Origin: Auricularia sp. M13
Taxonomy: Eukaryota > Basidiomycota > Agaricomycetes > Auriculariales > Auriculariaceae
Reading direction: 5' to 3'
Assembly (NCBI GenBank): GCA_037042915.1
Contig: CM073198.1
Span: forward strand, 1,426,001-1,490,000
DNA length: 64,000 nucleotides
Of the stretch, positions 4,142 through 57,055 are shown one piece after another (the stretch's first letter is position 1; each line of letters opens with the position of its first letter). The notes under the pieces were generated by a model. It saw only the letters and a program-made list of their open reading frames with translations, ran no database searches and was not told where the DNA came from. The translations under genes and the position numbers were made by a program.

Positions 4142-5360
4142 ATGCCCCGATACGAGTCGCCGCCGCGTACAACCGCAAGACCGTCAGCGCCATCATGAGG
4201 TCGCTCGAGGACGACCCGACGATTGAGGCGCTGATCGCGACGCACGAGGACGCGAAGCGGACGCTCAGCGGCCTACAGTAAGAGGCCGTCGACGAGGAGG
4301 ACGTCGACGAGGAGGACCTCGACGCGATCGAGGCGCTCAGCGCGCGCAGGCGCAAGGCGAAGGCCGAGATGCGCCTGGCGGTGCAGCGACGCTTCGGGAT
4401 GCTGGCCGAGTGCGTGGCCAAGGTCGCGGCGGACGCAGGCGCCAGGGCGGCGAAGAGCCAGGCGTCGCCGGCGAAAACGCCGATCACGAGCACGAAGGCG
4501 CTGGCAAAGGACGCGAGGGAGACCGAGTCGCCGCCGAAGAAGAGGAAGGCGTTGGAGGTATGGGTCGAGCTGCCTCGACTGCGCGACCTGGCTAAGGTGC
4601 GCTTTTGTTTTAGGTCGAGGTCGCGAAAACTGCTCAGGCGCCGCGCAAGGTCGCGCCGAAACCCGCGCCGGTCGCGGTCACTCGCTCGCCGTCGCTCGGG
4701 GCGGGCGAGACGCTCGAGGACGACGACGAGGTCGAGGAGCTTGCGAGCCTGGTGGCGCCGGCCGCGAAGCCCAAGCCGCGCGCCGGTGGCAAATTCACGG
4801 ACAAGTGGCCGGTGGTGCCGTACGGGACGCGGTTCCCGAGCAAGGTGAGTTTTTTGGTCGTTCGTGATTTGCTCGCCGGGGCTGACGTCGAGCAGTGCGA
4901 GGCTTGCGCCAAGCGTGGCGGTCAGTGCGTCCGGCAGCACCGGTCGAACACGTGCACCGCGTGTCATCAGACCCGGGGCAAGTGCACGCACTCGGGCAAG
5001 CCCTTCGTGCCGCGCGGCGAGAAGAGGGCGGCGTGGCCGAGTGCATCGCCCAAACGCCCCAAGAAGGTGCGCATCGTCGAGGGGACGGCGCTGGGGACGA
5101 GGGCGGCCGAGGACCGCGCGAAGACGGCCGAGCACCGCCGGGTCGTGGAGAACCACGCCCAGTGGACGAACAGCTCGGTGCACAACATCGAGCGGATGTT
5201 GTACCGCATGCTGCAGTGGCAAGCGCAGCAGTTCGGTCAGTCAATCGATGAGTCAATTGATGATCCGTTCACGAGCGAGGAGGAAGAGGAGGCCGAGGAG
5301 GAGGCCGAGGAGGAGGATGAAGAAGCGGTCGAGGAAGCGACCGAGGACGCGGACGAGTAG
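4142..5360 (+). pseudogene. Antisense accessory gene of Gypsy copy 1 (fossil of the Zn2Cys6 gene at 35142-36371)
   Basis: It has the same position, orientation and sequence type as the better-preserved gene at 35142-36371: plus strand, between the end of pol and the 3' LTR, opposite to gag-pol. The alanine/lysine-rich N-terminal part, the cysteine cluster (about 4896-4985) and the Glu-rich acidic end (about 5270-5357) are all recognisable. This copy is broken. Its presence in both Gypsy copies shows that the antisense gene is a regular component of this family and not a chance insertion. Confidence 0.75.
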
Positions 5361-8458: not shown

Positions 8459-8724
8459 TGGATGAGCGGGTGAAGTACAGGGCAAGAGAAGTGTGTGGCA
8501 GATGCAGGAAGCAGAAGAGCGGCGGAGATGACACGGGCACACGAATTCTGGCTCCGATCCGGTCCTTCCGGACTGTGCCCGCTCATCGTCACTTTGAAGG
8601 CAAAATCAATTTCTGAAATATACAAAAAAATTAAGGAAGCATTCTATCTCATGAATCGATTGAATTATGCAAAAAAACTAGCGCTCAGTGATGTCATAAG
8701 GCTGCCATGGGCGAGGTAACAGTG

Positions 8725-9238: not shown

Positions 9239-9555
9239 ACCCCCAGGTAAATTTGAGAAGCTTGGATAGCAGTATATATCGAGTATGAAAGAGTTATAAT
9301 ACCTCAATACCTCAGGGATAGACGGTCAGAGGTGATGCAGCTTAGGAGGATGCCGAAAAATGCAGGTTTAGCCACCTCTGAGGCCTGCTGCACAACACCG
9401 GCAAGTCCACACATCCTGATACTCCTCTGAAGTCATTTGGAAACACAATGGTATTTTATGCAGTTGGTTTTGAAATTTTATATGAGAAATTGCGGCCAGA
9501 AACTCGGACATGTGTCAAGGACTGGGTCTGTGCCAAGGACCGGGTCATGACCGTA

Positions 9556-15568: not shown

Positions 15569-17870
15569 TTAAGGGTCCTGCGGCGGTGGCTCACCAGTTT
15601 TGGTGAACGCACCCGACGAGTGGATGAATTTGGCCAAGGCAGAGATGCCCTTGCGCGTACTGAGTAGCGCATGCGTCCCAAGCAAGTCAGGCTTGAAGGA
15701 GGCAAAGTGGTGATAGTGCTCGTCATGGCGCTCGCAATCTCTAAGGATGTGATCGCGTGTCTGCAAGTGGTGTCCACAAGGGCAAGTCACATCTTCAGTG
15801 GGAACGTGGCGCTGATAGTACTCGCCCATGAACGCATGTCCAAGGCGGCACTGCATGACCAGTCCATAAAGACGGCGAGGCAGCTCACCAAAGTGAGGTG
15901 GAGGGCGCCTCTTGGGTGGCCCATAGGCTGCCCTGGCATACAAACCCCGAGGAGGTGACTCTGCCCACTCCTCTATCCAAGTCTCCATGACACGCTCCTT
16001 GGCGCGTCTTTTGAGGTGGGACACAGTGGCCCATGAGGGACCTTGCATGCGAGCTGCCTCCTTGGCTAACTCATCTGCACGCTCATTGCCCCTTATGCCA
16101 ATGTGGCTGGGGACCCAAGAGATGGTCACCTCATGAGAAGCATCAGCAGCAAGGAAGTCACGAGCATGCTCGCAGAAAGAAATGGAAAACTGCTGGGCAG
16201 AAGCAGGACGCTCCTTGACAATGGCCTCAACAGCTGAAGAGTTGTCAGCAAAGAAGTGAAGGTGGGAGGCCGAGCCCATGGGCAAGTCCATGTAATGGGC
16301 AACATGGTCCATGGCAGCAGAGAGGGCATGCATCTCAGCATCATAGACCTCAGCCTGGGACCCCATAGGGATGCGACCGCAAGACTGCTCCTGACCCTCC
16401 AGGTAGGTCACAAAAGCTGCACCAGTCCTGCGACCAGTTGGAGTGTCTAAAAGGGAACCATCAGTGTAGATCAGCAGGTTTGCAGAGCTGAGTTCCAGCA
16501 TCTGCACAAGTCTGACATGGGACTCTGCAGCATCAGCTTTGCTCACACCCTTTGGCACAGGCCTCAGGTGGATGCGACCTGGAAAAGCTGCAAGCAGAGA
16601 AATGGCCCATGGGGCAATGTGGAAGGGCTCAATGCGCTCATTGCCAGGTGAGGTGAGCTTGGCAAGGTAGCGAAGAGAGGAGCGAGTTTGACCACGCTTG
16701 TGCACCACTGGTGGCTTCTCCATTGGAGACTGGTGCCAGGCAGGGTGCAGGCGCTGCAAGACAGGACTGTAAGGCCCCAACTTGTGCAGGCGAGCAGCAG
16801 CAAGGTCATCGGCCTTGTCTAATACCAAGTGTATAGGAGGAATAGCTGCCTCCAACTCAAGAGCATAAATGGGCGAAGTCTTGAAGACAGCACAGATCAT
16901 GCGCAGACACAAGTTCTGCACACGCATGAGCTTCTCAGCTTGCCATGCCCTTTGCATCCACCATACTGGTGAAGCATAGAGGAGAATGGGGAGAATGCAG
17001 GAGATGTACAGCCTGCGCATGTGTCCCAGGTGGAGACCACGCACAGTGTTGGCCAACATGCGCAATCCCATGGCTGCCTTGCGCGCCTTGGCACAGGCCT
17101 TGTCCACATGGGCGCGATAGGTCAACTTGGGGTCAAAGAAGATACCCAGCCAGCGTACAACTGGGAGAGGGCGCAGGCGAGCAACCTGGCCCTGAGCATC
17201 AGTGTAGGCCATGGCCAAGTCATCATTGGCAGCAATGTCAGCAAAGGAGCCATCCTTGCGACGCCAGGTGTGGTGCATAAGCTCACACTTGTCTAGGTCA
17301 GGCTGAAGACCTGCCAGGTTGAACCACTCCCGAATAATGCAGAAGCAGAAGCGCAGCTCAGCAGTGTTCAGCTCCAGGCTGTCAGAGTGCACAGTGCATC
17401 TCCCATCATCCACATAGAGGAAGAGGGTGGGTGCCACAAATGTGGGATTGAGCTGGCGCATCTCTGCCTCGCGGGCAGCTCGCCTCTGCTGCATGAACTC
17501 AATGAGCCCAGTGGAGTAAAATGCAGAGAGGATGCCAGAAACTGGAGAGCCCTGAGGCACTCCATTCTCAACTGGCTTACAGCTGCTGACTCTACCATCC
17601 AGGCAGATGGATGCCTCTCTGTCCTGCAAGAAGGATGCAACCCACTGCACAATGGGCAGAGGCACACGCTTCTCTCGCAAGACCAGCAAGAGACACTGGT
17701 GGTTGACAAAGTCAAAGTAACCCTTGATGTCAAAGGTCAGGGAACTAGTCACCAAACCCTTGTCACGAGCAGTCTGCACATCATGAGTGTAGCACAGAGC
17801 AGCATCCACAGTGGAGGACGCAGGCATGGCCCCAAACTGGTTGGGGTGCACAAGACCCATGGCACATGCC
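15569..17870 (-). pseudogene. LINE ORF2, reverse transcriptase and RNase H part
   Basis: It encodes the target-primed reverse transcriptase of the LINE. Visible blocks are motif A (TFDIKGYFDFVNH), motif B (NGVPQGSPVSGI), the catalytic FLYVDDG, then RNase H with IYTDGSLLD, AEVYDAEMHAL, FFADNSSAVEAI and SWVPSHIGIRGNERADELA. A Cys/His cluster follows near the C-terminus (CPCGHHLQTRDHILRDC). About 767 codons remain open, ending at the stop at 15569. RNase H plus the C-terminal Cys/His cluster fits the fungal Tad1 clade. The upstream half is displaced by the LTR insertion at 17876, so the copy is not functional. Confidence 0.9.
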
Positions 17871-17875
17871 ATGTA

Positions 17876-18899
17876 TGTCACGGTGTGCTGCATACACCAC
17901 CGACCAGGAGGCGTAGCCGACCAGGAAGGGTACTCAGGAGGGGAAGGTCGAACACATAATAGACCAGATCCAACCTAGGGTACATCTGAGGGCAATCGCC
18001 GGTACATATAGTCCGATCGGAGGCAAATCGGATCCGAACGCTCCGGACAACAAAGGAAGCCAACCAACACCAAAGAGAGGTCCGGAAGCGATGGGAAAGG
18101 CATCGGGGAAGTCACCGAGGGTAATCGGGAGCCAGTGGAAGCAATGGGGGGTAAAGGGAGTCAAGGGAGGGTCAAGAAAGAGTGAAGCGTCGCGCCGAAG
18201 GCGCAGAACGACTCCGGACGAAGGGGATAAAGGATGTCCGTGCCTATGGAGGGTATCGGGCGGGTATCCGAGACAGACCGAGGTGTCCTTGCATGTATGC
18301 ACGCACCGACACCAGGGGCGAAAGGCGCCGACGCAATGGCAAGCGCAGCAGCGAGCGCAACGCGTCAGCGAGCGAGGTACGAGCGCACCACCCAACAACC
18401 AACACTCCCACTCCATCCGGACAGCCTCCGGACCATGGACCATGCCGCACGCGGACCGAGGAGAGTGTGGCGGCCGAGGTCCGAGGTGCCGGAGCGGTCG
18501 AGCATCCAGGGGACAGAGGGTGAAGGATGTATGTCGGCACGATCGTTGCAGCTTCACCTGTACTCCCAGCGCACACCGGCCCTGCAGGGCAATACCCGAG
18601 GTGTGGTGTGCGGCATCTCCGAAGGTGTAGGCCGTAATGTGACGCCGAGGAGACGGACCGACGAACGGCTACACGCTGGTTGGAAACCAACACAGCGGTG
18701 ATCGACAACAATGGCAATAGCGCGTCGCATCCAAGGACCGAGGTTGACAGGGGTCCGGTGACGCCGAGAGAAGGTAGCCGAGGTGCCAGCGGTCCGGAGA
18801 GGCATGCGGAACGGGTATATCGGTCCGACGGAGCGGGTGAAGCGGCGAAAGAGATCCAACGGAAGCGGCGTATGGGCAAGATCGCCGCGCACCGTAACA
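17876..18899 (-). repeat. 3' LTR of the LARD-like element
   Basis: 1,024 bp, direct repeat of 21217-22240. It is rich in short CCGAGGT/GTCCGAGG motifs. No open frame in it resembles a known protein. Confidence 0.93.
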
Positions 18900-21216
18900 T
18901 AACCCCCCTTCCAGCCGCGAGCCCGCAGAAAGCGACCGAGCATGGTGGAGGCCATTGGGGGTGGCCGAGGTCGTTAAATTCATGACGAATCGAAATAGAA
19001 GTGTACCCTCGCATCGGGCGAGACCCAAAGCACGGAGGTCGTCTCCCCCGCTCGGACCGAAGTGGTCCACGGCGAAAGCGAGGCCCATTGGGGGTGAGGA
19101 CTAACGGGCTATTACGGCACGGCGATTAATCCTCACCGATCCAAGGTGCAACACCAGCGTCGGAAACATTGCAGGTCCAAGGGAAGGAGTCGGTCCGAGC
19201 TCCAAGCGAGAAGGACACCTACTCGGGATGTCCCCACACCACATCTCAATATGCGGCGGCCACCGGGAGTCCTACCGTCCGGGAGGGAACACGGGAAAGG
19301 TCGTTACTGCCGAGCGAAACGCGGGAGCGGTCGAGGTCGTAATGGAAAAGAGAGCAGGACGCGCTGCGCCCAGGAACGGACTCCTACCATCTCCGGCTGG
19401 GGTACAAGGGTGGGGGAAGGTCCGAGTACACCGAGATAGCGCCCGAGGCACAGGACCGAAGGTATAGGAGGTGTCGGAGTGTTGGTCCGCGACCAACAAC
19501 GCTGAGCACTGCGCATCCCAGTGGATCGCAACCTCAACCCCGGTGAAGGGCACGACGAGAGTTTGAAGCGAAATCATGGCGGTCGTAAGCGTAAGCCAGT
19601 GCGGTCGGCATCGGGGTGGCAGCCCGGGAGGAGGGGTGGAGTGTAGGGGAGGATGTCCGATGCGACGGCGAGTCCGAGGGTAAACAGCGGCTATCCCGAA
19701 TTGAGCTCGTGCAGTGCGCAAGCAGAGCCAGACTTCATCAGTGACATCGCCGGTGGGTCCGAAGTGCGGGTCCGTCCCGGGAGGGGGTTCCAGATGCGCC
19801 AGAGAAGTCCACAGGTCCAACAGGATACGATGTCAGGGCGGCCGACGTACGCGACCGATGCACTGAACATCGGATGCACATATCTTGCCGAGGACCTCTT
19901 CGTTTGGCAAGGTCCAACCGCGGATAGAAGGCCAGAAATTGGGAGAGGACACGGGCACCTCGCGCGGGATTCGGAAAGACGCCCGACGGCGAAATAAACG
20001 GCGGAGCGGACAGGGGGTTGACAGTCGGCAGCATCGCCGAGGGCGCGTTGTATCGAACGGGCGGCGGGTCATGCGGCCGCGGAGACCTTGCCAAAAACAC
20101 CTGTGCGATAGAAGAAAAGCCTGTGAGACCATTGGGTCCGTGTCCGGTTCGTGTACTCCATCCTGTAACGCCGAAGAGGGGGTGCGCGCGTGAGCACCGA
20201 TATTCCGAGCAAACCAATGCGATCCAGCGGGGCTCCGGCCTCGGTCCATGTCAGGGAGCACCTCCAAGGTCCAGCGGCGGGGTAGGTCAGCGTTGGCTCA
20301 CGCGTCCGACACCGGAAGATCCAGGTCGGCGGAGGGTGCGAAACACCAGATGTCCAGCAGCTCGGCGGAGCGCACGGCGACCTGTACTGTTGCCAGCGTT
20401 GCATAACTGACAGCGGCCGACATCGGTAGGTGTGGAATGGTCCGAGGTGAACTTGGAGCACAAGGACCGAGGGTAGATGGGTGCCGAGGGTCGCGCTGCG
20501 AAGGACCGAGGTGTGCAAGTGCGTGGGACGCCCAAACGCTCGATTGGCAGCCAGGACAGCGTGCGCGGGGTATCGGTCAAGCACGCATGGGTGTGGGACG
20601 TTGATACGCGTTGACCGAGCCTTGGGGCAGGCGGAACGCAGCAGGGGCCGGCGAGGGGGAGCGGAAATGGTCCGGCCGAGGCGGTGCATGGCAACGGCAG
20701 CATCGGCGAGCGTAGCGCCTCGTAACTTCGCATGGGACTCCGGAGGGGTGGTGCAAGGGTGTCGGCAAAGTTTGGAAGCCATCGGCCTATAGGGTGTTCG
20801 TCGGCGAAGCGATTCGTGCGGACTGCGAGCGGGATTTGCCGGACGTCGTTGCGAGGGGCGACCAAAGGGAAAACTACAACTCCAGAAGGGTCCGGAACTT
20901 GAGGGTAAGGTTTGGGAAGCGTGCCTAAGGACGGTATGGGGCTGAAGGAAGGCCGAGAGGCGGCCAGGGGGTCCGGGAGGGTTCGGGTCCAAGGGGGCGG
21001 CCACCAGAAGCTTGAGACTGAGGCCAGGGGATTCTGTGGGCGAGATCGGTCCTATATCCAAGGTCCAGGTGGTATAAGCGAAGGGGATATCGTGGAGACC
21101 GCAGGGGCGGGCATTCGCAGCTCCGCTGGGGGTAGGAGGAAGTAGAGAGCGGATAGAAGAGGATAGAGGGGGGGAGGAACTGAGTACCCGGAGTGGACGG
21201 GGTAGGTTGGATCTTA
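18900..21216 (-). other. Interior of the LARD-like element, no recognisable genes
   Basis: GC-rich sequence. A 390-codon open frame on the minus strand (about 21241-20069) is proline/serine/arginine-rich, overlaps the LTR border and shows no gag, protease, reverse transcriptase or integrase motif. It is probably an accidental frame in GC-rich DNA, although a very divergent gag cannot be excluded. CCGAGG-type motifs recur throughout. The sequence next to the 5' LTR (minus strand TAAGATCCAACCTACC) is the place to look for a primer-binding site. Confidence 0.7.
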
Positions 21217-22240
21217 TGTCACGGTGTGCTGCATACACCACCGACCAGGAGGCGTAGCCGACCAGGAAGGGTACTCAGGAGGGGAAGGTCGAACACATAA
21301 TAGACCAGATCCAACCTAGGGTACATCTGAGGGCAATCGCCGGTACATATAGTCCGATCGGAGGCAAATCGGATCCGAACGCTCCGGACAACAAAGGAAG
21401 CCAACCAACACCAAAGAGAGGTCCGGAAGCGATGGGAAAGGCATCGGGGAAGTCACCGAGGGTAATCGGGAGCCAGTGGAAGCAATGGGGGGTAAAGGGA
21501 GTCAAGGGAGGGTCAAGAAAGAGTGAAGCGTCGCGCCGAAGGCGCAGAACGACTCCGGACGAAGGGGATAAAGGATGTCCGTGCCTATGGAGGGTATCGG
21601 GCGGGTATCCGAGACAGACCGAGGTGTCCTTGCATGTATGCACGCACCGACACCAGGGGCGAAAGGCGCCGACGCAATGGCAAGCGCAGCAGCGAGCGCA
21701 ACGCGTCAGCGAGCGAGGTACGAGCGCACCACCCAACAACCAACACTCCCACTCCATCCGGACAGCCTCCGGACCATGGACCATGCCGCACGCGGACCGA
21801 GGAGAGTGTGGCGGCCGAGGTCCGAGGTGCCGGAGCGGTCGAGCATCCAGGGGACAGAGGGTGAAGGATGTATGTCGGCACGATCGTTGCAGCTTCACCT
21901 GTACTCCCAGCGCACACCGGCCCTGCAGGGCAATACCCGAGGTGTGGTGTGCGGCATCTCCGAAGGTGTAGGCCGTAATGTGACGCCGAGGAGACGGACC
22001 GACGAACGGCTACACGCTGGTTGGAAACCAACACAGCGGTGATCGACAACAATGGCAATAGCGCGTCGCATCCAAGGACCGAGGTTGACAGGGGTCCGGT
22101 GACGCCGAGAGAAGGTAGCCGAGGTGCCAGCGGTCCGGAGAGGCATGCGGAACGGGTATATCGGTCCGACGGAGCGGGTGAAGCGGCGAAAGAGATCCAA
22201 CGGAAGCGGCGTATGGGCAAGATCGCCGCGCACCGTAACA
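21217..22240 (-). repeat. 5' LTR of the LARD-like element
   Basis: Direct repeat of 17876-18899 with no difference noticed over the full length. The LTR-LTR identity is the main evidence for recent insertion. Confidence 0.93.
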
Positions 22241-34229: not shown

Positions 34230-34944
34230 TGTTAAGCCTGCTGTGCCTTGGGGGTTTGGTTGCAAGGATAGTCGAATGTCCGGGCGCAGAGAACACTCGA
34301 ACGAACAACTAGAGCCTTCGGTGCGTTATTGAGCACACCGGCTACGTCGAGTAGCACGACCGAAGGGACCGCGAGCAGCAGAGGACTCAGATGAGTAAGT
34401 CGGGCGAGGGGAGAACCCAGAGGCGAAGTCGAGAGAGAGAGATAGAGCGTGCGAGGGGCACGACTATGTCGATTTCGTAACTGGGGAGCTAGATACAAAG
34501 TCGAGGGTCTTTTATACCTGGGGAGGTGATCCGATGTACTCGGAGTGTATCCTAGAGACAAAGGAGAGGGGGCCTCAGATCAATAGAGATCGTCGTCATC
34601 GGCCGATAGGATGAGTAAGAGCGAGTGGGTAAGGTATCGGGGGATCGGACGAATGACGAGAGGCGAATGACTAAGACGAGTGGAGCGAACCGGATATGAA
34701 CACTATCGATACAGTAGGGACAAGGCGAGTTAGGTGGATGTATGCGAGTAAGGAGAGAAGCTAGAGAAGTGAGGGAGAGGTCTAGAGGTAGAGGACGATG
34801 AGGAGAACATATCCCGAGCATATGAACACGAGGGGAGATAAGCCGGGTATTCGGGAGCTTGACCGAGTTGACCGAGTGACGTAGAATGACGCCGAGTGAT
34901 GCCGAGAGCACATGAGGTCCGCGGACCGGGGCACGGGCGTAACA
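34230..34944 (-). repeat. 3' LTR of Gypsy copy 2
   Basis: 715 bp, starting TGTTAAGCC and ending GGGCGTAACA on the plus strand. It matches 42091-42763 and the LTR of copy 1. Confidence 0.92.
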
Positions 34945-35141
34945 GTATCCCCCCTTTACGTCCTGAGCCCACGAAGGACTGCAGCAACGCAAGGTGAATA
35001 CGAAAAATGAGATAGCACGCACTCGAGTCCGAATGGGGCCAAAAGATCGGGTCGGGTCGGAACGGGTCGGACGCAGATTAAAAGTGGTTGGGTCGGGAGT
35101 TGAATCGTCGAACCACTCTTGTCTTCTGCCCGCCGCCCACC

Positions 35142-36371
35142 ATGCCACGATACGAATCGCTCGAGGACGTCGCCGCCGCGTACGACCGCAAGACCGTCGG
35201 CGCCGTCATGAGGTCGCTCGAGGACGACCCGACGATGGAGGCGCTGATCGCGGCGCACGAGGACGCGAAGCGGACGCTCGGCGGCCTGCAGCAAGAGGCC
35301 GTCGACGAGGAGGACCTCGACGCGATCGAGGCGTTCAGCGCGCGCAGGCGCCAGGCGAAGGCCGAGCTGCACCTGGCGGCGCAGCGACGCTTCGGGATGC
35401 TGGCCGAGCGCGTGGCCAAGATCGCGGCGGACGCGGGCGCCAAGGCGACGAAGAGCCAGGCGTCGCCGGCGAAAGCGCCGACCACGAGCACGAAGGCGCC
35501 GGCGAAGGACGCAAGGGAGACCGAGTCGCCGCCGAAGAGGAGGAAGGCCATGGAGGTATGGGTCGAGTTACCTCGACTGCGCGATCTGGCTAAGGTGCGC
35601 TTTTGTTTTTTAGGTCGATGTCGCGAAGACGGCTCAGGCGCCGCGCAAGGTTGCGCCGAAACCCGCGCCGGTCGCGGTCGCTCGCTCGCCGTCGCTCGGG
35701 GCGGGCGAGACGCTCGAGGACGACGACGAGGTCGAGGAGATCGCGAGCCCGGTGGCGCCGGCCGCGAAGCCCAAGCCCAAGCCCAAGCCGCGCGCAGGCG
35801 GCAAGTTCACGGACAGGTGGCCGGAGGTGCCGTACGGGACGCGGTTCCCGAGCCAGGTAAGTTTTCGGTCGTTCGTGTTTTGCTCGCCGGGGCTGACATC
35901 GAGCAGTGCGAGGCTTGCGCCAAGCGCGGCGGCCAGTGCGTTCGGCAGCACCGGTCGAACACATGCACCGCGTGTCATCAGACCCGGGGCAAGTGTACGC
36001 ACTCGGGCAAGCCGTTCGTGCCGCGCGGCGAGAAGAGGGCGGCGTCGCCGAGTGCGTCGCCCGAGCGCCCCAAGAAGGTGCGCATCGTCGAGGGGACGAC
36101 GCTGGGGATGAGGGCGGCCGAGGACCGCGCGAAGACGGCCGAGCACCGCAGGGTCGTGGAGAACCACGCCCTGTGGACGAACAACTCCGTGCACAACATC
36201 GAGCGGATGTTGTACCGGATGCTGCAGTGGCAAGCGCAGCAGTTCGGCCAGTCGATCGACGAGTCGATCGACGATCCGTTCACGAGCGAGGAGGAAGAGG
36301 AGGTCGAGGAGGAGGCCGAGGAGGAGGATGAAGAAGCGGTCGAGGAAGCGACCGAGGACGCGGACGAGTAG
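35142..36371 (+). CDS. Antisense accessory gene in the Gypsy element, Zn2Cys6-like protein
   Basis: It lies inside the LTR element but on the opposite strand to gag-pol, tail-to-tail with pol (about 120 bp between the two ends). From ATG 35142 it encodes a charged N-terminal part (YESLEDVAAAYDRKTVGAVM), an Ala/Lys/Pro-rich middle, a cysteine array at 35907-35996 with spacing C-x2-C-x6-C-x8-C-x2-C-x6-C, and a Glu-rich acidic C-terminus ending at 36371. The spacing fits the fungal Zn2Cys6 DNA-binding cluster. Two short GT-AG segments (about 35555-35614 and 35857-35906) look like introns. The acidic tail suggests an activator-like or chromatin-binding protein, but that is inference. The related gene in copy 1 is broken. 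Confidence 0.65.
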   Translation: MPRYESLEDVAAAYDRKTVGAVMRSLEDDPTMEALIAAHEDAKRTLGGLQQEAVDEEDLDAIEAFSARRRQAKAELHLAAQRRFGMLAERVAKIAADAGAKATKSQASPAKAPTTSTKAPAKDARETESPPKRRKAMEVWVELPRLRDLAKVRFCFLGRCREDGSGAAQGCAETRAGRGRSLAVARGGRDARGRRRGRGDREPGGAGREAQAQAQAARRRQVHGQVAGGAVRDAVPEPGKFSVVRVLLAGADIEQCEACAKRGGQCVRQHRSNTCTACHQTRGKCTHSGKPFVPRGEKRAASPSASPERPKKVRIVEGTTLGMRAAEDRAKTAEHRRVVENHALWTNNSVHNIERMLYRMLQWQAQQFGQSIDESIDDPFTSEEEEEVEEEAEEEDEEAVEEATEDADE

Positions 36372-36491: not shown

Positions 36492-39400
36492 TTAGATGTT
36501 TTCGAATTTCTTGAGGATTTGCTGGAACTCTTGATAACTGCCGGGAGCGCTGGGATTTGCAGCATAGAAGTCTTGAACTGCTTCTTGCGCGTGTTCGAGA
36601 TTTTCGGAGCCCATCTCGGTGGTCTCGGGGTCGTCGGGAGTGCCGATGTGACCGATCCAGCGAATGCGAAAACGAAGGCGCGAGTGACGATGGCGATTGT
36701 CGATGCGTACGCTGAGTACTTCGAGCTCGTACTCCTGCTCGCCGTCGACAACGACGGGCGGAGGAGGTTCTTGACGTTGACCGGGGAATGCTTCTTGAGG
36801 GTGAGGTTCGAGTTGCGAGACGTGAAAGACCGGGTGTACGCCAGCGAGGTAGTCGGGTAGGCTGAGAGTGAACGATTGCGAGCTAGGTTGATCGACGATC
36901 GGGAACGGGCCTAAGTAGCGATCGGCGAGTTTGCGGGTGGGCTGCGTCGTCTTGATGTGTTCCGAGAGGACGTAGGCCATGTCGCCGACCTTGAAGTCAG
37001 GCGGGGAAGTGCGTCGAGCATTCGCAGATGCAGTGTAACGTTTCTGAGCGGCAGCGATCTGCTCCTTCAGGACGTCCTGCAGTTCGTGGATGTCGACAGC
37101 GAAGTCGCGGGCGCGAGCAGAGGCAACGTCGCGCTCGGGGTAGACGGAGATGTTCGGGTGAAAACCCTTGTTGGCGAAGAAAGGCGAGACACCAGTCGAG
37201 TCGTTCGGGGTGTTGTTGTACGTGAATTCGGCGAGAGGGAGTAGCTCGGACCAGTTGTCCTGCTCGTAGTTGCAGTAGAGACGGAGGTACTGCTCGAGCG
37301 TCTGGTTCGTGCGTTCGACTTGACCGTTCGCCTCCGGGTGGTGACCCGAGGTGAAGTCCATGGTCATGTTGAGGAGCGAGCCGAGTGCGCGAAAGAAGCG
37401 GGAGACGAATTCGGAGCCGCGGTCGGTAGAGACGTGCGAGGGAGCGCCATGTTTGGCGAAGACGTGGATGAGGAAGAGACGTGCGAGTTCTTCGGAGGTG
37501 ATCTTGCCCTTGGTCGGGACGAAGATACCCTGCTTCGAGAGGCGATCAATAATGACGAGGATCACAGTGTAACCGTTGGACTCAGGGAGTTGTTCGATGA
37601 AGTCCATCGAGATCGAGTCCCAGTTGCGAAGCGGAATCGGGAGCGGTTGAAGTCGACCGTACGGCTTGTGTCGTCGAGGTTTGCTGCGCCCACAGGTGAC
37701 GCAGGCCTGGACGTAGGTACGAATCGAGTCACGCAGGTCGGGCCAGTAGTACTCGCGGGCGACCATCTTGAGTGTCTTGTTCTGACCCGGATGGCCAGCG
37801 AGCGGGTGATCGTGCTTTTCGCGAAGGATACGAAGGCGACAATCGAGAGCGTTTGGTACGTAGATCCTGCCCTTGAACAGCAAGAATCCATCGTCCGAGG
37901 CCGACCAGTTGATCGCGTCATCGGTGCCGAGTTTCGAGCGAATGTCGAGAGCGAGTTCGTCCGAGTCGTACGAGGCGCGAATGTCATCCCGAATGGACTG
38001 AGTGTCCATGATCGTGGCTGCGCGAAGGAAAGTCTCTTCAGCATACGTCGCGCGAAGGGAAGCGGCGAACTGTTCCGAAGTAAAAACGGGTCGGAAGTTC
38101 TGCGGGTTTGCGCTGGCGTAGCCACCATCCCCCCTTTTGAGATAGACGTCGTGGCGGCGAGTGAGAGCATCGGGTTTGCCGCCGAGTCGACCGGGTCGAA
38201 AGCGAATGAGGAGGTTGAAGGCAGAAAGGTACTCGGACCAGCGAGCTTGCCGACGAGTGAGCATCTTCGTGGTAGAGAAATACTCGAGGTTCTTGTGGTC
38301 CGTGACGACGTCTATTGGGGTCTCGGCCCCTTCGGGGTAGTGTCGCCAGAGTTTGAACGCCTTGAATATCGCGAGTAGCTCCTTGTCGTGCGTGTCGTAG
38401 TTGAGCTTGGTGGGAGTGAGCGTGCGCGAATGGAAAGCGACGGGGTGAACAGAGCCGTCCGGGAGGATGTGCGAGAAGATCGCCGCGATCGCGTAGTCGG
38501 AAGCGTCAGTCTCGACGACGCGAGGGAGAGCGGGATCGAAGTGGTGAAGGACGGGAGCGCAAGTGAACGCCTTCTTGAGCTCGTTGAACGCAGCGAGGCA
38601 TTGCGGAGTGAAGTTCCACGTTGCGGTCTTTCGAGTGAGACGAGTGAGCGGGACGACGATATCGGAGTAATCGTAGATGAATCGTCGATAGAAGTTTGCG
38701 AAGCCGAGGAACGACTGGATGTCGCGAACGTTGCGAGGAACGGGCCACTCGAGGAGGGTGGCAATCTTCTTCGGGTCCATGCTGATGCCCTCGGGGCTGA
38801 TGATGTACCCGAGGTACTCGATGGTGTCAGCATGGAACTCGCACTTCTCGGGCTTACAGAAGAGGTCATTCTCCCGCAGCCGTCAAAGGACCTCTCGAAC
38901 GTGTTCCTCATGCTTCGAGGGATCGTCCGAGTAGATAAGGATGTCGTCGAGGTAGACGGTGACCGTGACGTCGAGGAGATCGGAGAAGATGTCGTTCATG
39001 AAGCGCTGGAAAGCGGCTGGAGCGTTCGTGAGACCGAAAGGCATGACGAGATACTCGTAGGTGCCGTAGCGCGTTCGAAAGGCAGTCTTCCACTCGTCGC
39101 CGGCCGCGATGCGAACGTTGCTGTATCCGACACGAAGATCGAGCTTGGTGAACTTCTTGGCGGTGCGAAGGCGGTCGAGCGTGGACGAGATGAGCGGGAG
39201 CGGGTACTTGTCCTTCCGAGTGATCTTGTTGAGCCCACGATAATCGACGCATAGGCGAAGAGAACCGTCGGCCTTCTTGACGAAGAGAACCGGGGCGCCA
39301 CCCGGGGACGACGAAGAGCGAATGTGTCCTTTGCTGAGGTTATCCTGAATGTACTCCCGAAGCGCGAGTTGCTCGGGCTCGGAGAGCGAGTAGATCGGAC

Positions 39401-40205
39401 CGGATGGGAGAGGCTTGCCTTCTTCCATGTCGATCTTGAGATCGTACGGTCGATGTTCAGGGAGTCGATTCGAGGCCTCCTTTGAGAAGACGTCGAGGAA
39501 CTCGTGATAACACTCGGGGATGCCTTCGCCGGTTTCCGAGGCCGGGTTGGCAGACGCAGAGCGAGCGGGCACCGATGGATCTCGAATGTAGATGGCCGAG
39601 ACCATCGAGCCGCGAAGTCGACGAGAGGTGTCGAAGGCTGCGGCGCCGATGATCTTGATGTCGACGCGAGCAGCGGCCGCGCGAAGGGCGGTTTCGTCCA
39701 TCGGCGGTTCGGGAGGCAGAGTACGTGGCGCGGGAGGAGGTGACGACGGAGTCGGAGGATCCGAGTCGAGCGAGAACCCAGGGACGAAACCCGAGGGATC
39801 CGAGGGCGAGACACGAGTGGGGAAAGAGATGCGGTGATGGAACCAGTCAATCCTAGGATTGTAGCGGGCCAACCAGCGGTATCCCAGCACTGCAGAGCAA
39901 GTCGGATCTAGAGTGGTGAGGAGGAAGTTGATGATCATCGAAGTTCCGCAAGGGAAGCGGACGGGAAGCGACACGTATTTGGAGATAACACCGCGATAGG
40001 AGCCGTCGAAGAGCCGAAGGCGTAGCGGTTGATCGAGAGACTTTTGAGGGAGTCGAAGACTCTCGGCGAACTGAGTATCGAGGAACTGATCTTTGGAGCC
40101 AGAGTCGACGAGTGTGCAAAAGGATGGGACAGCATCGGAGGAGAGGACGACGATGAGAGCGTCTTGATCGGTGAGTGCGGCAGCGTTCAACCGAGTGTAA
40201 GGCAT
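36492..40205 (-). pseudogene. Gypsy copy 2 pol: protease, RT, RNase H, integrase, chromodomain
   Basis: Two long minus-strand frames (40205-38883 and 38780-36492) cover the polyprotein. Visible parts in order are the retropepsin DSG ([12 protein letters not shown]), reverse transcriptase ([22 protein letters not shown]), RNase H (VETDASDYAIAAI), the integrase zinc-binding part (HPGQNKTL ... CVTCGRSKP), the DDE core (SMDFIEQLP, STDRGSEF, HPEANGQVERTNQTL) and a C-terminal chromodomain (YELEVLSVRIDNR, RFRIRWIGH). The chromodomain places it among chromoviruses, which target heterochromatin-like marks. About one break separates the two frames. Confidence 0.9.
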
Positions 40206-40252
40206 CTTGGGCTTGACGCAGTTGGCCCTAGATGCCCGTGGGGAACTGCCCG

Positions 40253-40576
40253 TTAGTTTTTCGCTTCCGCCGGGGCAGAAGCGGCGGCGCCCGAGGGAGC
40301 GGGAGCCGGCGTCGAGGAAGTCGCGGGTTGAGCCTTAGCGGCGCGACCCTTCGACTCGCGATTGTGAGCGGCCTTGCGGCACTCGGACGCGGTGTGGCCG
40401 GCATGGCCACAGTAGAGGCAGAGGTTGTTATCGAGGCGACGGCGTCGTTCGGCGTCGTTGAGCTTGCCGTTCGAGTTGAGGTTCTTCGCGACGTCGTCCT
40501 TCGACTTGGTCGTGGTCTTCGAAGACGAGCGGGCCGAGGTCGAGGACTGACCCCTCGAGTTCGAGTGGTTGTTCGA

Positions 40577-40607
<31 letters not shown>

Positions 40608-42058
40608 GAGCGCGCGTTGGACTTGGTGTTCGATCGGGAGCCCGATTGAGGCGTCGCGGTCGAGGTGGTCTTCTGCGCTTTGCGGGGTTCGTTTGCGTGT
40701 TCGAGGGCTTGCTCGTCCTTATCGATCCAGTAGTTGGCGTCGATGCTAAGAGCGAGCGCAGCGAGTGGCGTCAGAGAAGCCGGGCGTTGAGCTACCTGAG
40801 CAGCGAAGACAGATTTGATGCGGCGAGGGAGTCTGCAATAGAATTGCGAGGCGAGTGCAGCGTCGTCCCAGCCGAGCAGTTTGGCGTATTCGTCGAACTG
40901 GAGCTTGTAGCGGGCGACCTTGCCGTTGTCGGCCATTTGCAGTCGTCGAATCTTGACTTCGGCGTGTTCGCGTTTGTTCGTGACGCCGAAGGTGATCGTG
41001 AGTTCGTTCTTGAATTCGTTCCAGTCTTCGAGGAACTCGTAACCGGGAGGCGGATTCGGGACGAGAGGAACGTAGCCGCCCCACCATTCCTTCGCCCGAC
41101 CCGAGAGATAGGTCGCGGTGAAGAGAATCTTCTCGCGGGACGTCTGGTACTTCCGAGGGTTGGCGAGGAAGTAGGTTTCGCAGTCGATGAGGAATCCGCG
41201 AAGTTTGTTGGCGTTTTCGCCGTCGAATTTGTCGGGTTTGGCGGCGTCGATGCGAGAGCCGCTGTCGCGGTCGACGAAGTAGACACGAGGGACGTTGTCG
41301 TGTTGATCGTGGAATTGTCGTTCGCGATCGACGTCCGAGTCGTAGCCGTCCGACGGAGGGTCAAAGGGAGGTCCCGGGGGACCAGGAGGACCGTTACCGC
41401 CACCACCGCCCCCACCGCCGCCACCTCCGAGAGGAGGGTTCGGAGGATGCAAGCCGTGCGAGTGGTGCGAGTGGTGCGAGTGGTGCGACGAGGGCGAGGG
41501 AGCACCTCGATGACCACCACCGCCACCGCCGCCTCCGCCGCCTCCGCCTCCTCCGCCACCCCCGCCGCCACGGCGGGGCGTGTTAGGGGTGCCGGATGGG
41601 AAGGAGCCGTGGAACGACGAGGAGTGCTGCGAAAAACGAGGAGTCGAGCGAGAGCCGGTGTACGGAACGAGCGCGAGAGGGTGTCGAGAGCCGAGCGAGT
41701 GAGTCGAGGGATGCGAAGGCGATCGCGTCGTGTGACTTGAGGGAGGGTAGGAACCGCTCGGGTCCGCGCGTAGTGTGGACTGGGCCGGCGAGAAACGCGA
41801 GGTGTGAAGCGAGCCGGAGAGAGTGTGTTGCGAGAGGATTTCGTCATCATCGTTCGGCGGTTGCGAGTGCCGAGATGATCCGAAGCGGCTAGTGCCCGAC
41901 ATCGGGACTGATGGCAAAGGCGTAGCCGGCTGAGGAGGTTGTTGGTTGCGAAGACGAGCCTGACGACGAGCTTCGCGAAGGATAGCGTCGGGGGAGTCGA
42001 GTAGAGGATGAGGTTCTTCTTGGTTTCTTCTGAGATTCTGTCGAGTCCCAAAGGCCAT
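40253..42058 (-). CDS. Gypsy copy 2 gag, 601 aa
   Basis: It encodes the capsid-forming gag of the element. The frame opens with [18 protein letters not shown] shortly after the 5' LTR. It has a Ser/Pro/His-rich N-terminus with a His/Ser repeat and long polyglycine runs (about 41380-41575 in DNA), then the gag core ([34 protein letters not shown]), an Asn/Gly repeat and a CCHC zinc knuckle ([14 protein letters not shown]) near the C-terminus. The frame is open throughout. Confidence 0.88.
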
Positions 42059-42090
42059 ACAACTCCAGCGGAGCTCGAGTTACAAAATAC

Positions 42091-42763
42091 TGTTAAGCCT
42101 GCTGTGCCTTGGGGGTTTGGTTGCAAGGAAAGTCGAACGTCCGGGCGCAGGGAACACTCGAATGAACAACTAGAGCCTTCGGTGCGTTATTGAGCACACC
42201 GGCTACGTCGAGTAGCACGACCGAGGGACCACGAGCAACAGAGAACTCAGATGAGTAGATCGGGCGAGGGAAGAACCCAGAGGCGAAGTCGAGAGAGAGA
42301 TAGAGTGTGCAAGGGGCACGACTATGTCGATTTCGTAACTGGGGAGCTAGATACAAAGTCAAGGGTCTTTTATACCTGGGGAGGTGATCCGATGTAATCG
42401 GAGTGTATCCTAGAGACGAAGGAGAGGGGGCCTCAGATCAATAGAGATCTTCGTCATCGGCCGATAGGATGAGTAAGAGCGAGTGGGTAAGGTATCGGGG
42501 GATCGGACGAATGACGAGAGGCAAATGACTAAGACGAGTGGAGCGGGATGTATGCGAGTAAGGAGAGAAGCTAGAGATGAGAGGGAGAGGTCTAGAGGTA
42601 GAGGATGATGAGGAGAACATATCCCAAGCGTATGAACACGAGAGGAGATAAGCCGGCTATTTGGGAGCTTGGCCAAGTTGACCGAGTTGGCCGAGTGACG
42701 TCGAGTGGTGCTGAGTGATGCTGAGAGCACGTGGGGTCCGCGGATCGTGGCACGGGCGTAACA
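42091..42763 (-). repeat. 5' LTR of Gypsy copy 2
   Basis: 673 bp, same borders as 34230-34944. The sequence between it and the gag ATG (minus strand GTATTTTGTAACTCG...) is the place for a primer-binding site, but I cannot match it to a tRNA. Confidence 0.9.
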
Positions 42764-52660: not shown

Positions 52661-52848
52661 ATTCGTGCTTATAGATGTTCTTTGAACTTGCTACAATTGA
52701 ATTGGCAGATCGACGGATTTGCGCGGTGAATCCAGAATCGGCGGATTGGCGGATCTGCCAGCCTGCGCAAATCACATGCACGGCACGTCGCGCGCGGCGG
52801 AGTGACACGTGTTGCTTGCTGCTTGACCGCAACCGTCAGCTGCTAGAC

Positions 52849-53838
52849 ATGCTCTCCAACGCGACTTGGCGCCGAACGATGTCGGTGCACGATGCGGCTA
52901 TCACAGACTCTACACGCGCTGGCTACAATCATGCTAGACTCTTCCGTTTCCTCGAATGGTGTGCTACGGAACGCGTTCCGGACAAGTCTCGCCACCTGCC
53001 GGTAGCTGAACCGCTGCTGTGCGCTTTTGCTGCGTCATATGCTGGCGCTTATGCGGGAGGAACTACTCGGTCCGCTCTGGCTGGCTTGCGTTTTTGGCAC
53101 GAATCGAAGGGTGCCGACTGGAAAGGCTCGCCGTGGCTCACGCGCATACTGGACGCGGTCACACAGATGGCTCCTGCAGAGTTGAGGTTGGAGCCGAGGC
53201 TGCCGGTCACAATGGCAATGGTTGATGAGGCTTTGAACACTCTCGACGAGCACCGGCCGTTTGACCAATGTGTGGCAGCTGCCCTTCTTGTCGTCTTCTG
53301 GGGCCAGCTTCACTTGGGCGAGGTCCTATCTCTGACGAGGCGATACGACTCATCGCGCTTGCCGCTGCGCAAACATCTCAAGTTGGGACACGACACCGGC
53401 GGTCATGCCTCCACCGAGGAGACAACGTTGTGGCTACTGATGACGAAAACTGCGCGACGTGGAGAGTCGGTGTGCCTTGCTAGGCATCACAACGACCCTT
53501 CTTTTGCTTTGCAGGAGCATATTGCGGATAATCGCGTTGGACTTGACGACCCGCTGTTCGCCTATCGCAATTCCCACGATGATCTCGTCGCGCTCACGAA
53601 GAATACTTTCCTCTCGCAGCTGAATGAGATTTGGGAGGCCGCGGGCATGAAGAAGGTGTCTGGCCACTGCTTTCGCATCGGCGGCACAACTGCTCTCCTT
53701 CGTCTTGGGGTCGATGTGGAGATTGTCAAGAAGGGTGGTAGATGGAAGTCAGACTCTTTCCTGCGCTATTGGAGGTCTGTCGATAACATAATCGCCTCGC
53801 ATACCGACCTCTGTGATGTTCACTGGTCTGGTAATTGA
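52849..53838 (+). CDS. Outer DIRS element: tyrosine recombinase
   Basis: One open frame holds both the N-terminal SAM-like domain (TRAGYNHARLFRFLEWCATE) and the catalytic domain (GHCFRIGGTTALLRLG, FLRYWRSVDNI), making it the best-preserved recombinase of the three DIRS copies. The start at ATG 52849 aligns with the inner element's N-terminal block. Whether it is active cannot be told from sequence. Confidence 0.78.
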   Translation: MLSNATWRRTMSVHDAAITDSTRAGYNHARLFRFLEWCATERVPDKSRHLPVAEPLLCAFAASYAGAYAGGTTRSALAGLRFWHESKGADWKGSPWLTRILDAVTQMAPAELRLEPRLPVTMAMVDEALNTLDEHRPFDQCVAAALLVVFWGQLHLGEVLSLTRRYDSSRLPLRKHLKLGHDTGGHASTEETTLWLLMTKTARRGESVCLARHHNDPSFALQEHIADNRVGLDDPLFAYRNSHDDLVALTKNTFLSQLNEIWEAAGMKKVSGHCFRIGGTTALLRLGVDVEIVKKGGRWKSDSFLRYWRSVDNIIASHTDLCDVHWSGN

Positions 53839-53899: not shown

Positions 53900-56870
53900 C
53901 AGTCTCCACGCACGCAAAGCAAAAGGGTATAGCAACACAAGATAAGATCCCTCTGCTGTTGGGATTTAACCGATAAGCTTGAATTTTTTTTGTGAGCATG
54001 GTGCATGTAGTCTATAACTGTAAACCGCACAACTTGATGATCGGGTGAGCGTGCAATATTCGGTGGCTGAAACAGGTGCCGCCGATTGCCCAAAAAGGCA
54101 ATTACAGTTAGTCAGAGCCACACTGTGAGCCCGAGGGGTCACTTAGAGATGTGTGATTTGTGGATTGGCATTTATTACCTCTTGTTAAACCCATATTCGG
54201 ATTTTGTTCGGGTTTTTGCACCAGCTATTGAGCCCGGGACCTCGTGGTTCCGGTGCGGCAGCCGGGCACAACCTCCGACTGTTCAGGCCTCCTTGACCTG
54301 CTCCCATCGTCGTCCCATCGTCCCAGCCATGCCGCCTGGTGGCCGTCGTATCAGTGCCAAGCTCCAGCGCCAGAGGAACCGCATCGAGGAGGAGAAGCGG
54401 ATTGCCGCTGCCGCTGCTTCCTACATTGAGAAACAGAAACTTGGCAGTAATCTCAGCATCTCAGCGTTTGCTACGAAGGCTGGAGTCAAATATGACCATC
54501 TCTACAACTACTTGAGTGGCCGCCCACCACGCACTCAGGTGGATGCAGCAAAGTCTCTGCTTGGTCCCGCCGAATCAAAGCAACTTGTCGATTGGCTCAT
54601 TGCTCAGGCCGATCGTGGCTTTCCTCTGACGGACTCCCAAATTGAAGAACTTGCGAATTATCTGATTCGCAAGCTCGGCAAAATGGGGCCCGGCTGGAAG
54701 GGTGTTGGCAAAGACTGGGTGTCCCGATTCCGCATGCGGCATGAGGACCGCTTGGCACGCTACTGGACGCGGTCCCTGGAAACAGCGCGTGCAAACGGTC
54801 TATCCCAGGAGCATGTACAGCGCTGGTTTGCGCTGCTTGCAAAGACACTGCTCGATGGCGAGGTTCCACCCAGCCGCATTTTTGCTATGGACGAGTCTGG
54901 CTTCATGATTTCCGTTCTCATGCGCCAGATGGTGACGGGGGGCAAGACTGCTGCTGGCCATAAGAAGAAGGTGCAGCACATACAGAGCAGTCACAACCGT
55001 GAGCTTGTTTCTGTGATTGCCACCATCTGTGCAGATGGAACTGCGCCTACACCTGCCGTCATCTTCCAGGGCAAGAACCTGATGTCGTCTTGGGTGCAAA
55101 ATAATCCGCTGAAAGCACAGTGAGTCAATCCTTCATTTGGCAGACATATTTCGATGCTAACATGGTTGCAGCATCGGCATGTCTGAGAAAGGCTACAATA
55201 ACGGTGTGATTGGTCTTGCTTGGATCAAGCAGTTTGACCTTGAAACTCGTCACAAGGCGCCCAACGGAGAAGTTCGGGTTCTCATTGTTGACGGTCATGG
55301 CTCTCACTACACAGCCGAAGCACTGCAGTATGCTCAGGAGCATAACATCGAGATCCTTGCCTACCCCCCACACACGACGCATGCTCTGCAAGGCCTCGAT
55401 GTTGTCATGTTCGCCCCGCTGAAGCTCGCATATTCTGCTGCTGTTGAGAAGTTCGAAGAGGAGTCTGGCCGACATGCAGCAAAGGCAGACTTCCTCTCAC
55501 TGTTCGAAACACCCTGGCGTCAGACTTTCACACCGGCTCTCATCCAGCAGGCATTCCGGAAGACTGGTGTCTGGCCAGTTGATGCAACTGTCATTCAGGC
55601 AGAGCAGATGCAACCCGCTGTTGCAAACTCGATACGCCCAGGGTTCGGTCCAACCACACCTAGCCCCGTCCGAGCTATAATGACGGCGCTGGCACCCGAG
55701 TCCATCCCCGCTGCAGCTGCAGTGCCTGCCACTGTTTCGGACACTTCGCAGACTCTTGTTACTCCTCAGAGGCATGCATCTGCGCCTCATACCATCTCCG
55801 AACAGCAGGGTCAGCTTGCTAGGAGTCTATTGCGACAGACGTCGGCAGCATTCCTTCTTGACGATGATGTCACTCCCGACGACAAGCTTCCTTCGCCAAC
55901 GTTCCACGAGCCAGCAACCTCGTCTCCAGACTGGAAAATGGGCGAAGCTTCGCACGGAGATTCTCGTGAGCTCGCTGCTGTGAAGGCCGCACTCCGGAAA
56001 GCACAGCGCCGCGACGCCTCACAGAACCGCATACTGCATTCGTCTCAGGCCTTGATGGCACTGCAGGGGCTTCACCTCGGGAAGCTCACCAAGCGCCTGA
56101 CTGCAAAGACAAAGAAACGGAACGATGTTCGGACCGTTCTCTTTAAGTCTGGCAATGGTGTGCTCCTGACTAGCGACGAGAGTGTGGCACTTGTTCAGCA
56201 TGCTCAGGAGCGGCGCACTAAGGCTATTGATGACCGAGTGGGGCGCAGAGCTGCTAGACAAGTTGCTAAAGATGCTGCAAGGCTGGAGAAGGAGCGCAGG
56301 GCCAAGGTGCGGGAGCAATACCACAAGGAGATGCGCCAGTGGGAGGCAGTTTGCACGCAGATCCGTTCTGCCAATCCCGGCAAGCGTCGCAACCTTGGCC
56401 TTCCTCCCAAGCCGCGCAATCCACTCTACAAGCGCAAGGAGAGACACCCAGAGCAGATTGATGAGGAGGAACTCCAGGAGGAGGACACTCAGATGTGGGA
56501 TGAGACTGATGCTGAGGATTCATCTGATGAATCTGACTCAGACGCGATGGACGTGGACTTGGCTCAGACTGATGATGATGACAATGATTGGGAGGCCATG
56601 TAGTTGTAGTTTCAAGTGTCGCATCTCAGAAAATCCATGTGTGTGCGAGTGACGATGCAATCTTGTGTTGCGTACCGGAAGCCGGAACTTCCGGTCATTG
56701 CCGATGTCCACGCACAGCAGCGCCAACATCGCGAAAAATTCCGGCAATTTATTCAGAGGCAAAGAGTACTCCAATAAAGCTTTCAACAATGTTTGATTTA
56801 GAAAATTTTGTAGGGATAATGCCTGGTAGCCTTATCTCCAAACTATTTTGCTTTGCTTGCGTGGAGACTG
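53900..56870 (+). mobile_element. Complete pogo/Fot1-like DNA transposon (2,971 bp)
   Basis: The inverted ends CAGTCTCCACGCACGCAAAG / complement of CAGTCTCCACGCAAGCAAAG are flanked by TA at 53898-53899 and 56871-56872. It carries one two-exon transposase gene. It inserted into a short direct repeat (TTGAACGTGAATTGCTGCAG-like) in the 3' region of the outer DIRS element. A second copy of this very insertion, with the same flank, lies inverted at 62522 onward. It looks whole. Confidence 0.93.
54329..56603 (+). CDS. Pogo/Fot1-like DDE_1 transposase, 740 aa, two exons
   Basis: Transposase of the surrounding element. Exon 1 is 54329-55119 and exon 2 is 55172-56603, joined in phase over a 52 bp intron (GTGAGTCAAT...GTTGCAG, with a GCTAAC branch-like site). 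The N-terminus has a helix-turn-helix (LSISAFATKAGVKYDHLYNY, about residues 44-63), then a CENP-B-like block ending in ARYWTRSLETARA. The DDE aspartates are D188 (AMDESG), D304 (VDGHGSH) and D340 (LQGLD), the last pair 35 residues apart. IQQAFRKTGVWPVD follows, and the tail is basic then acidic. It is related to but clearly distinct from the transposase at 8458-6271. ATG 54329 follows a CT-rich leader and is the first that gives family-like sequence. Confidence 0.93.
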
Positions 56871-57055
56871 TAGGTTGAACGTGAATTGCTGCAGTAGGTT
56901 GAACGTGAATTGCTGTTGTCACATGTTAAAGATAAATTGTGGTTTCAACCATAATTTACTTATTCAGAGCCTCAGGCTCATCCTTTCTTTCTCTTGTGTG
57001 GGTTCTCTCTTTCTTCCAAGTTTGGGTTTCTCGCTTGGTTGGGTTCCCAACTCGA

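Follow-up and report, generated by a model that had tools for sequence, protein, structure and literature searches.

An antisense gene with two predicted introns and a six-cysteine cluster in a Ty3/Gypsy retrotransposon of Auricularia sp. M13

What does a gene with introns do on the antisense strand of an LTR retrotransposon, between pol and the 3' LTR? Among the antisense protein genes of retroelements, those of retroviruses such as HTLV-1 are the best known. The question is raised by a locus in the window, the 64,000-base stretch of Auricularia sp. M13 analyzed here (C6:1426001-1490000), which was compared with the whole genome (52.1 Mb in 14 contigs). Here we present the structure of the element and its antisense gene, the evidence for coding constraint, a second element family with a related gene, and a proposal for the function.

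The element and its antisense gene

The element lies on the minus strand of the window and possesses an LTR pair, a polypurine tract, gag and pol. Its Pfam domains follow each other in the order Retrotrans_gag, RVP_2, RVT_1, RT_RNaseH, Integrase_H2C2 and rve, and it is a Ty3/Gypsy LTR retrotransposon. The flanks as read are without a perfect target-site duplication at this copy. A sequence-only reading of the locus had called the element a Gypsy chromovirus; LTRs, polypurine tract and domain order bear out Gypsy, whereas chromovirus is not confirmed for this pol. The last 95 or 75 amino acids of pol gave no Pfam match at E values up to 10, chromodomain included, and BLASTP against the chromodomain protein of the second family described below gave nothing (E 0.91). 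M-phase phosphoprotein 8 (MPP8) is known for its chromodomain and was the single match of the pol C-terminus in a PDB search, a weak one (E 1.1).

The features of the locus are as follows, in positions of the window.

34230..34944, minus strand: 3' LTR (TGTTA...TAACA), found as direct repeats with 42091 onward, ends read
34945..34959, minus strand: polypurine tract adjoining the 3' LTR, in element sense GTAAAGGGGGGATAC, read directly
34951..35141, plus strand: leader/promoter stretch of the antisense gene, from the alignment
35048..35070, plus strand: five CGG triplets at 5-base spacing (CGGGT CGGGT CGGAA CGGGT CGG), kept in 34 of 40 aligned copies
35077..35083, plus strand: ATTAAAA between array and ATG, read directly; putative TATA-like element
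35142..35555, plus strand: exon 1, ending in PPKRRK plus four residues (predicted splicing, copy alignment)
35556..35613, plus strand: intron 1, GT..AG, 58 bases predicted
35614..35856, plus strand: exon 2, a low-complexity linker
35857..35906, plus strand: intron 2, GT..AG, 50 bases predicted, stopping directly before the first cysteine codon
35907..36371, plus strand: exon 3, with six-cysteine cluster, basic stretch PKKVR, long helix, Glu-rich acidic tail and stop
35907..35996, plus strand: six-cysteine cluster C-x2-C-x6-C-x8-C-x2-C-x6-C
36492..40334, minus strand: pol (protease, RT, RNase H, integrase), with an in-frame stop between 38882 and 38883 in this copy
40253..42079, minus strand: gag (Pfam Retrotrans_gag; CCHC knuckle read by eye)
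42091..42763, minus strand: 5' LTR, from direct-repeat comparison, ends read
about 4156..5360, plus strand: antisense gene of the second Gypsy copy (C6:1430156-1431360; L024), exon 1 frame-broken, exon 3 readable

The antisense gene (35142-36371, plus strand) is flanked by the pol stop (36492, minus strand) on one side and by the polypurine tract with the 3' LTR on the other, where the sequence-only reading had placed it. It starts with an ATG at 35142 and consists of three exons, all joined in phase 0, which encode 373 amino acids; both predicted introns agree with the positions proposed earlier. PPKRRK at the end of exon 1 is a putative signal of the nuclear localization type. Exon 3 begins with the cluster, whose cysteines are residues 220, 223, 230, 239, 242 and 249, and the spliced translation bears out the cysteine spacing and the acidic C-terminus that had been reported. 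The helix behind the cluster is modeled by AlphaFold2 with pLDDT values of about 89-97 in its core and may form a coiled coil. By its look, the product is probably a nuclear DNA-binding protein.

The gene is also present in the second Gypsy copy of the window, as had been claimed, there with a broken exon 1 frame and a readable exon 3. This second copy looks interrupted by an insertion, because a DDE_1 transposase frame (7325-8605) lies within its span and there is a jump in its spacing to the first copy from 5769 to 9553.

Other repeats occur in the window. Two inverted repeats of 1640 bases (55415-57054 and 62338-63977) are 100% complementary and 5.3 kb apart; they are preceded by a weak Phage_integrase match below the cut-off (52675-53838) and by a match to the DNA-binding domain of Tc5 transposase (54071-55123). 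A stretch of 300 bases is found with 100% identity at 17874-18173 and 21215-21514, 3341 bases apart. It adjoins a frame with RT and RNase H (15569-17974) and is possibly a recent duplication of a retroelement part.

Copies and coding constraint

The DNA search of the whole genome delivered at least 42 matches to the gene at a minimum of 40 places, and grouping of DNA search and tblastn together gave at least 51 places. Among the 40 pol 3' ends scored (of 60 candidates), the gene is adjacent at 37, lies within 10 kb at two (6.4 and 4.3 kb off) and is missing at one, where the nearest gene is 37 kb away. The gene is part of the element and has been inherited with it in dozens of copies.

For the copy alignment the window and 39 near-complete copies were used (n=40), leaving out interrupted or fragmentary places. 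GT..AG is intact at both introns in all 40. Measured against the window, the exons have median divergences of 2.4, 3.3 and 3.7%, introns 1 and 2 of 12.9 and 8.0%, which puts the introns at about 2-5 times the divergence of the exons. Wherever the third exon is readable (32 of 32 copies) the six cysteines are complete, the remaining 8 of 40 having been dropped for a broken third-exon frame.

In the proposed frame the pooled pN/pS is 0.30 (pairs of 38 copies, L056 and L058 dropped) versus 1.37 and 1.52 in the other two frames of that strand. On the opposite strand the registers give 1.34, 0.50 and 1.71, which leaves the proposed frame as the lowest of the six. Within the gene, exon 3 as a whole and positions 35907-36008 both have a value of 0.19, and exon 2 is the least constrained (0.53). 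The acidic tail is without constraint, with a ratio of 3.1 from very few changes. The 3' part of pol has a value of 0.18 in its own frame (34 copies; L009, L024, L030 and L049 were dropped in addition to L056 and L058).

As most copies decay after insertion, shared variants were compared with private ones. Variants present in at least three copies comprise 35 non-synonymous and 59 synonymous changes versus 135 (one of them a stop) and 87 among private variants (P = 1.3e-4; P = 0.004 with CpG sites removed). The counts comprise single-base variants that are either private or shared by at least three copies, at codons readable in at least 20 copies. In pol the same filter is stronger than in the gene, with 8:40 shared versus 340:145 private variants (non-synonymous:synonymous). 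Shared variants are poorer in amino-acid changes, as is expected of a protein-coding gene of an active lineage and not of an antisense RNA or a chance frame. The antisense gene is protein-coding and under purifying selection. The sequence-only reading had staked its proposal in part on a frame kept in other copies and on constraint visible in synonymous versus non-synonymous change, and both are found.

The spliced frame is open in 18 of the 40 aligned copies, window counted, and not open in 22. Four indels are common to at least three copies, two of them 12 bases long and two frame-shifting 2-base deletions (in 7 and 8 copies); in view of these shared deletions, many copies must have spread or persisted without a working gene of their own, unless assembly errors are involved. 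In some copies combined indels preserve the frame on balance, which could be explained both by selection and by assembly error. The 22 non-open copies and the shared frame-shifting deletions count against the gene being indispensable.

The gene is about three times more divergent between copies than the pol end (36492-37800), with medians of 4.4% and 1.4%. Gene and pol distances show a moderate correlation (Spearman 0.39; 528 pairs, 33 copies), and exchange between element lineages may be the reason for the mismatch in divergence. Two types of the cluster occur: of 43 genome matches 31 read CHQTRGKC and 12 CNQSRGKC, with no mixed forms.

The cysteine cluster, the CGG array and a second family

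Fungal Zn2Cys6 proteins have the spacing pattern C-x2-C-x6-C-x5..12-C-x2-C-x6..8-C, and similar six-cysteine motifs occur in many predicted proteins of mushroom genomes. The six cysteines of the antisense gene fit this pattern, and to this extent the earlier designation "Zn2Cys6-type" stands; membership in the Pfam family Zn_clus (PF00172) does not. The whole protein gave no Zn_clus match at E values up to 10. The cluster alone reached 15.1 bits, below the cut-off of 21, in an alignment that places cluster residues 20-36, i.e. the second triad and not the first, on profile positions 3-18 in the first half of the profile. For the cluster of the second family 11.4 bits were obtained, with residues 20-34 on profile positions 1-15. 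Because of the score below the cut-off and the alignment of the second triad, the protein is not filed here as a Zn2Cys6 factor. Across the genome 115 matches to PF00172 were counted, 67 of them over the cut-off, some being two pieces of one gene; this number and the short predicted introns are in keeping with a fungal genome.

A basic pattern is usual within the first cysteine triad of Zn2Cys6 proteins. Among four sequences compared, two types from each family, the first triad fits this pattern in none and the second in two, namely the H-types. A cluster with swapped halves is possible. Over the cluster AlphaFold2 gave pLDDT values of about 50-68, which do not resolve the fold, and Foldseek on this weak model gave a best E value of 5.6. 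The PDB profile search returned two chance-level matches only (E 0.28 and 1.9), and the viral contigs scanned with the exon-3 alignment delivered no relatives.

The leader of the antisense gene carries the CGG array CGGGTCGGGTCGGAACGGGTCGG at 35048-35070, 72-94 bases upstream of the ATG. Fungal zinc-cluster proteins usually recognize CGG triplets as half-sites. Compared over 26 other copies, the leader (34951-35141) diverges by a median of 0.5% and a mean of 1.1%, the LTR part 34420-34945 by 1.4% and 4.1%, respectively. Since a median divergence of 0 is also reached in 5 of 12 LTR windows of 60 bases and in several pol windows, the leader, though well conserved, does not stand alone in this.

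Genome-wide, the five-triplet pattern was matched 42 times; of these matches 41 lie within 150 bases in front of the gene or a gene fragment and one is a plain CGGGG repeat; reversed, the pattern matches six times. In 300 shuffles of the leader five triplets in a row never arose, whichever spacing between 3 and 12 was allowed. No CGG run above two triplets was found in the LTR or in the gene, and the LTR is without the array. A weaker test is the three-triplet pattern over the whole window, with 3 overlapping matches, a number that 7 of 100 shuffles also reach. The 41 arrays share one ancestor and are not independent, so their count demonstrates confinement and conservation and not repeated origin. 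In this genome the five-CGG array is essentially confined to this place. Judged by the triplets, it could be the landing site of the element's own cluster protein.

With exon 3 as query, weak matches were obtained at eleven further places (E 0.03-1.9; 40-41% identity over the cluster). The four of these that were read are repeats almost identical to each other, which carry CEQCERSGRPCFRQVSGSATACARCHRTRVGC, or a variant with Q in place of the second R, in open frames of up to 479 amino acids. In this second family the cluster gene is convergent with a stand-alone chromodomain ORF (Pfam Chromo, E 1.4e-9). With the family's own proteins as queries, the grouped matches place the cluster gene at 28 sites in the genome and the chromodomain at 25.

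C6:1503092-1507300 (L067, L063) is an LTR element of this family, with LTRs of about 480 bases that are 98.75% identical, a polypurine tract and a flanking repeat GCGAC, the latter two read in the sequence. Its interior of about 3.25 kb is too short for a full gag and pol. Six of its long frames on both strands, overlaps with the cluster gene included, gave no Pfam match to gag or pol. Among the 41 full LTR matches listed, from a search in which the best 40 of 195 candidates were scored, 13 pairs span 3.71-3.75 kb and 4 others 4.2-5.1 kb; the smaller size looks like the norm of the family.

The cluster genes of both families match each other in BLASTP with an E value of 4e-7 (single comparison). 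In shuffle tests the likeness of the cluster was reached in 0 of 2000 cases, that of the N-terminal part in 69 and that of the part after the cluster in 294 of 2000; thus only the cluster is clearly alike between the families. In a search back from the second family, the matches beyond its own copies all belong to the window family (E 0.05-0.9). In both families a phase-0 intron ends at the cluster, one codon before the first cysteine in the second family and directly before it in the window family; GT..AG is present in 8 of 8 copies of the second-family intron.

The second-family cluster gene has a pN/pS of 0.40 versus 1.01 and 1.44 in two shifted frames (8 copies), with the spliced frame open in 2 of the 8; the four near-identical copies alone give an uninformative ratio of 0.88 for exon 2. 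For the chromodomain gene the contrast is weak (0.50 versus 1.19 and 0.82; 4 copies). At none of the second-family loci examined do CGG triplets at 5-base spacing form a run of three or more, and the repeats of LTR and leader at one locus hold no triplet array. The second family suggests that the cluster gene is valuable to an element apart from gag and pol.

Within the second family CNRSRVGC occurs in one of five aligned sequences (L068) and CHRTRVGC in the others; the 22 matches of a pattern search all belong to the H/T type, the one CNRSRVGC having escaped it. The paired H/T versus N/S difference in the cluster thus occurs in both families.

Seven further weak matches of the exon-3 query lie outside both families, two of them at E 0.004 and 0.014. 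As these two surpass the second family, the latter is not the best remaining match from the side of the window. The three of the seven that were read (L060-L062), including both of these, have no six-cysteine cluster in any frame; the other four matches lie at C2:3868167, C1:4603088, C6:2969254 and C2:4092919.

Possible roles and known systems

We propose, with a probability of roughly 0.55, that the locus is a spliced antisense accessory gene for a nuclear six-cysteine DNA-binding regulator that acts on the CGG array of its own element. An antisense transcript would start in the leader beside the 3' LTR and yield the protein, which would enter the nucleus and dimerize via the long helix. The cysteine cluster would then bind the CGG array, and the acidic tail would switch the gene's own promoter and the chromatin at the 3' end of the element. 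Activation or anti-silencing of the family's own copies, with VANC as the parallel, is the preferred direction, negative feedback, with HBZ as the parallel, being nearly as likely. The antisense orientation allows the introns to survive retrotransposition, since splicing of the sense genomic RNA does not remove them. The earlier suggestion that the gene could regulate the element thereby receives circumstantial support from the array in the leader.

A wider form of the proposal is offered more tentatively. The antisense regulator, with its triads swapped, would recognize the CGG array at the 3' end, and this module would have been passed to, or kept by, the second family, which has a chromodomain gene and neither gag nor pol, as a parasite carrying genes for control and not for replication.

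Among the alternatives, a negative regulator or copy-number control fares best, yet it is considered unlikely. Here the protein would bind near the 3' LTR and damp sense expression or transposition. With respect to the 3' LTR and the last sense gene, the gene is placed and oriented like HBZ (excerpt of PMC10186651), and HBZ turns off an activating factor (excerpt of PMC3736048). The frequency of broken genes (22 of 40) is as expected if the gene is costly for the single copy. However, an acidic tail is more typical of activators, and selection throughout the lineage needs a benefit to the element, which self-limitation provides only indirectly.

Targeting of chromatin or integration is less probable still. 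Cluster protein and chromodomain protein would together place or retain cDNA or proteins and would have no part in transcription, which would suit the second family, where a stand-alone chromodomain gene (E 1.4e-9) faces a convergent cluster gene and no gag or pol was found at the place searched. Against this, the pol of the window family is without a confirmed chromodomain (none in Pfam; MPP8 at E 1.1 in the PDB), and selection on the chromodomain gene of the second family is weakly shown in its 4 copies (0.50 versus 1.19 and 0.82).

A recently captured host gene traveling as a passenger would account for the introns and the fungal-looking domain. It is nevertheless highly improbable, as no close relative outside the two element families was found among the scored genome candidates, the gene accompanies 39 of the 40 scored pol ends and is under selection, and a diverged relative resides in the second element family (BLASTP E 4e-7).

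That the antisense strand acts as RNA, tuning or triggering silencing in antisense or double-stranded form with the frame incidental, has the smallest likelihood of all: an antisense transcript of the 3' end would indeed be complementary to the sense RNA, but a noncoding antisense RNA was rejected on the codon-level constraint in this frame, the kept splice sites and the faster-diverging introns.

A selected, spliced antisense gene of the DNA-binding type in an endogenous fungal Gypsy element, with a candidate target array in its leader, would represent an independent case in a tractable kingdom. It would make it possible to test whether LTR elements control or evade host silencing by sequence-specific proteins of their own. 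It also has to be asked why the second family, apparently devoid of gag and pol, would keep such a gene under selection. The sequence-only reading had named no fungal chromovirus with an antisense gene of the transcription-factor type as known; the excerpts of open-licence literature covered by a thin search contained no description of such a gene in fungal LTR elements.

Compared with fungal Zn2Cys6 factors (PF00172), the element protein shares a compatible six-cysteine spacing, a helix behind the cluster, basic stretches and an acidic tail, and its presumed target contains CGG triplets. It differs in its score below the Pfam cut-off, in the position of its second triad on the first half of the profile, and in a first triad without the basic pattern usual there.

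Some Gypsy elements of the plant Tat lineage carry antisense extra ORFs at the 3' side, and the likeness consists in this extra gene and its position; the lineage and the host kingdom are others. We know of no six-cysteine cluster or CGG array in the antisense ORFs of plant Tat elements. The excerpt of PMC6696364 used here holds no description of these ORFs.

VANDALs are plant DNA transposons, and HBZ damps the sense transcription of HTLV-1. The VANC proteins of VANDAL elements in Arabidopsis bind to tandem repeats that lie in noncoding DNA of the elements encoding them (excerpts of PMC5735166 and PMC10398659). They resemble the present case, if the array is the target, in that an element-encoded protein is combined with a noncoding target of tandem short motifs. 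The comparison is one of logic. The VANC targets were measured (same excerpts), whereas the target here is a candidate.

HBZ is an antisense-encoded protein driven from the 3' LTR (excerpt of PMC10186651) and, like the gene described here, a 3'-side antisense gene read from the 3' end whose product is a probable nuclear regulator. HBZ belongs to the bZIP proteins and comes from an infectious deltaretrovirus, whereas here a fungal Gypsy element encodes a six-cysteine protein, in a gene with two introns and a CGG array in its leader. The two are likened by arrangement alone, and that arrangement, an antisense coding gene between the last sense gene and the 3' LTR, is present in this element.
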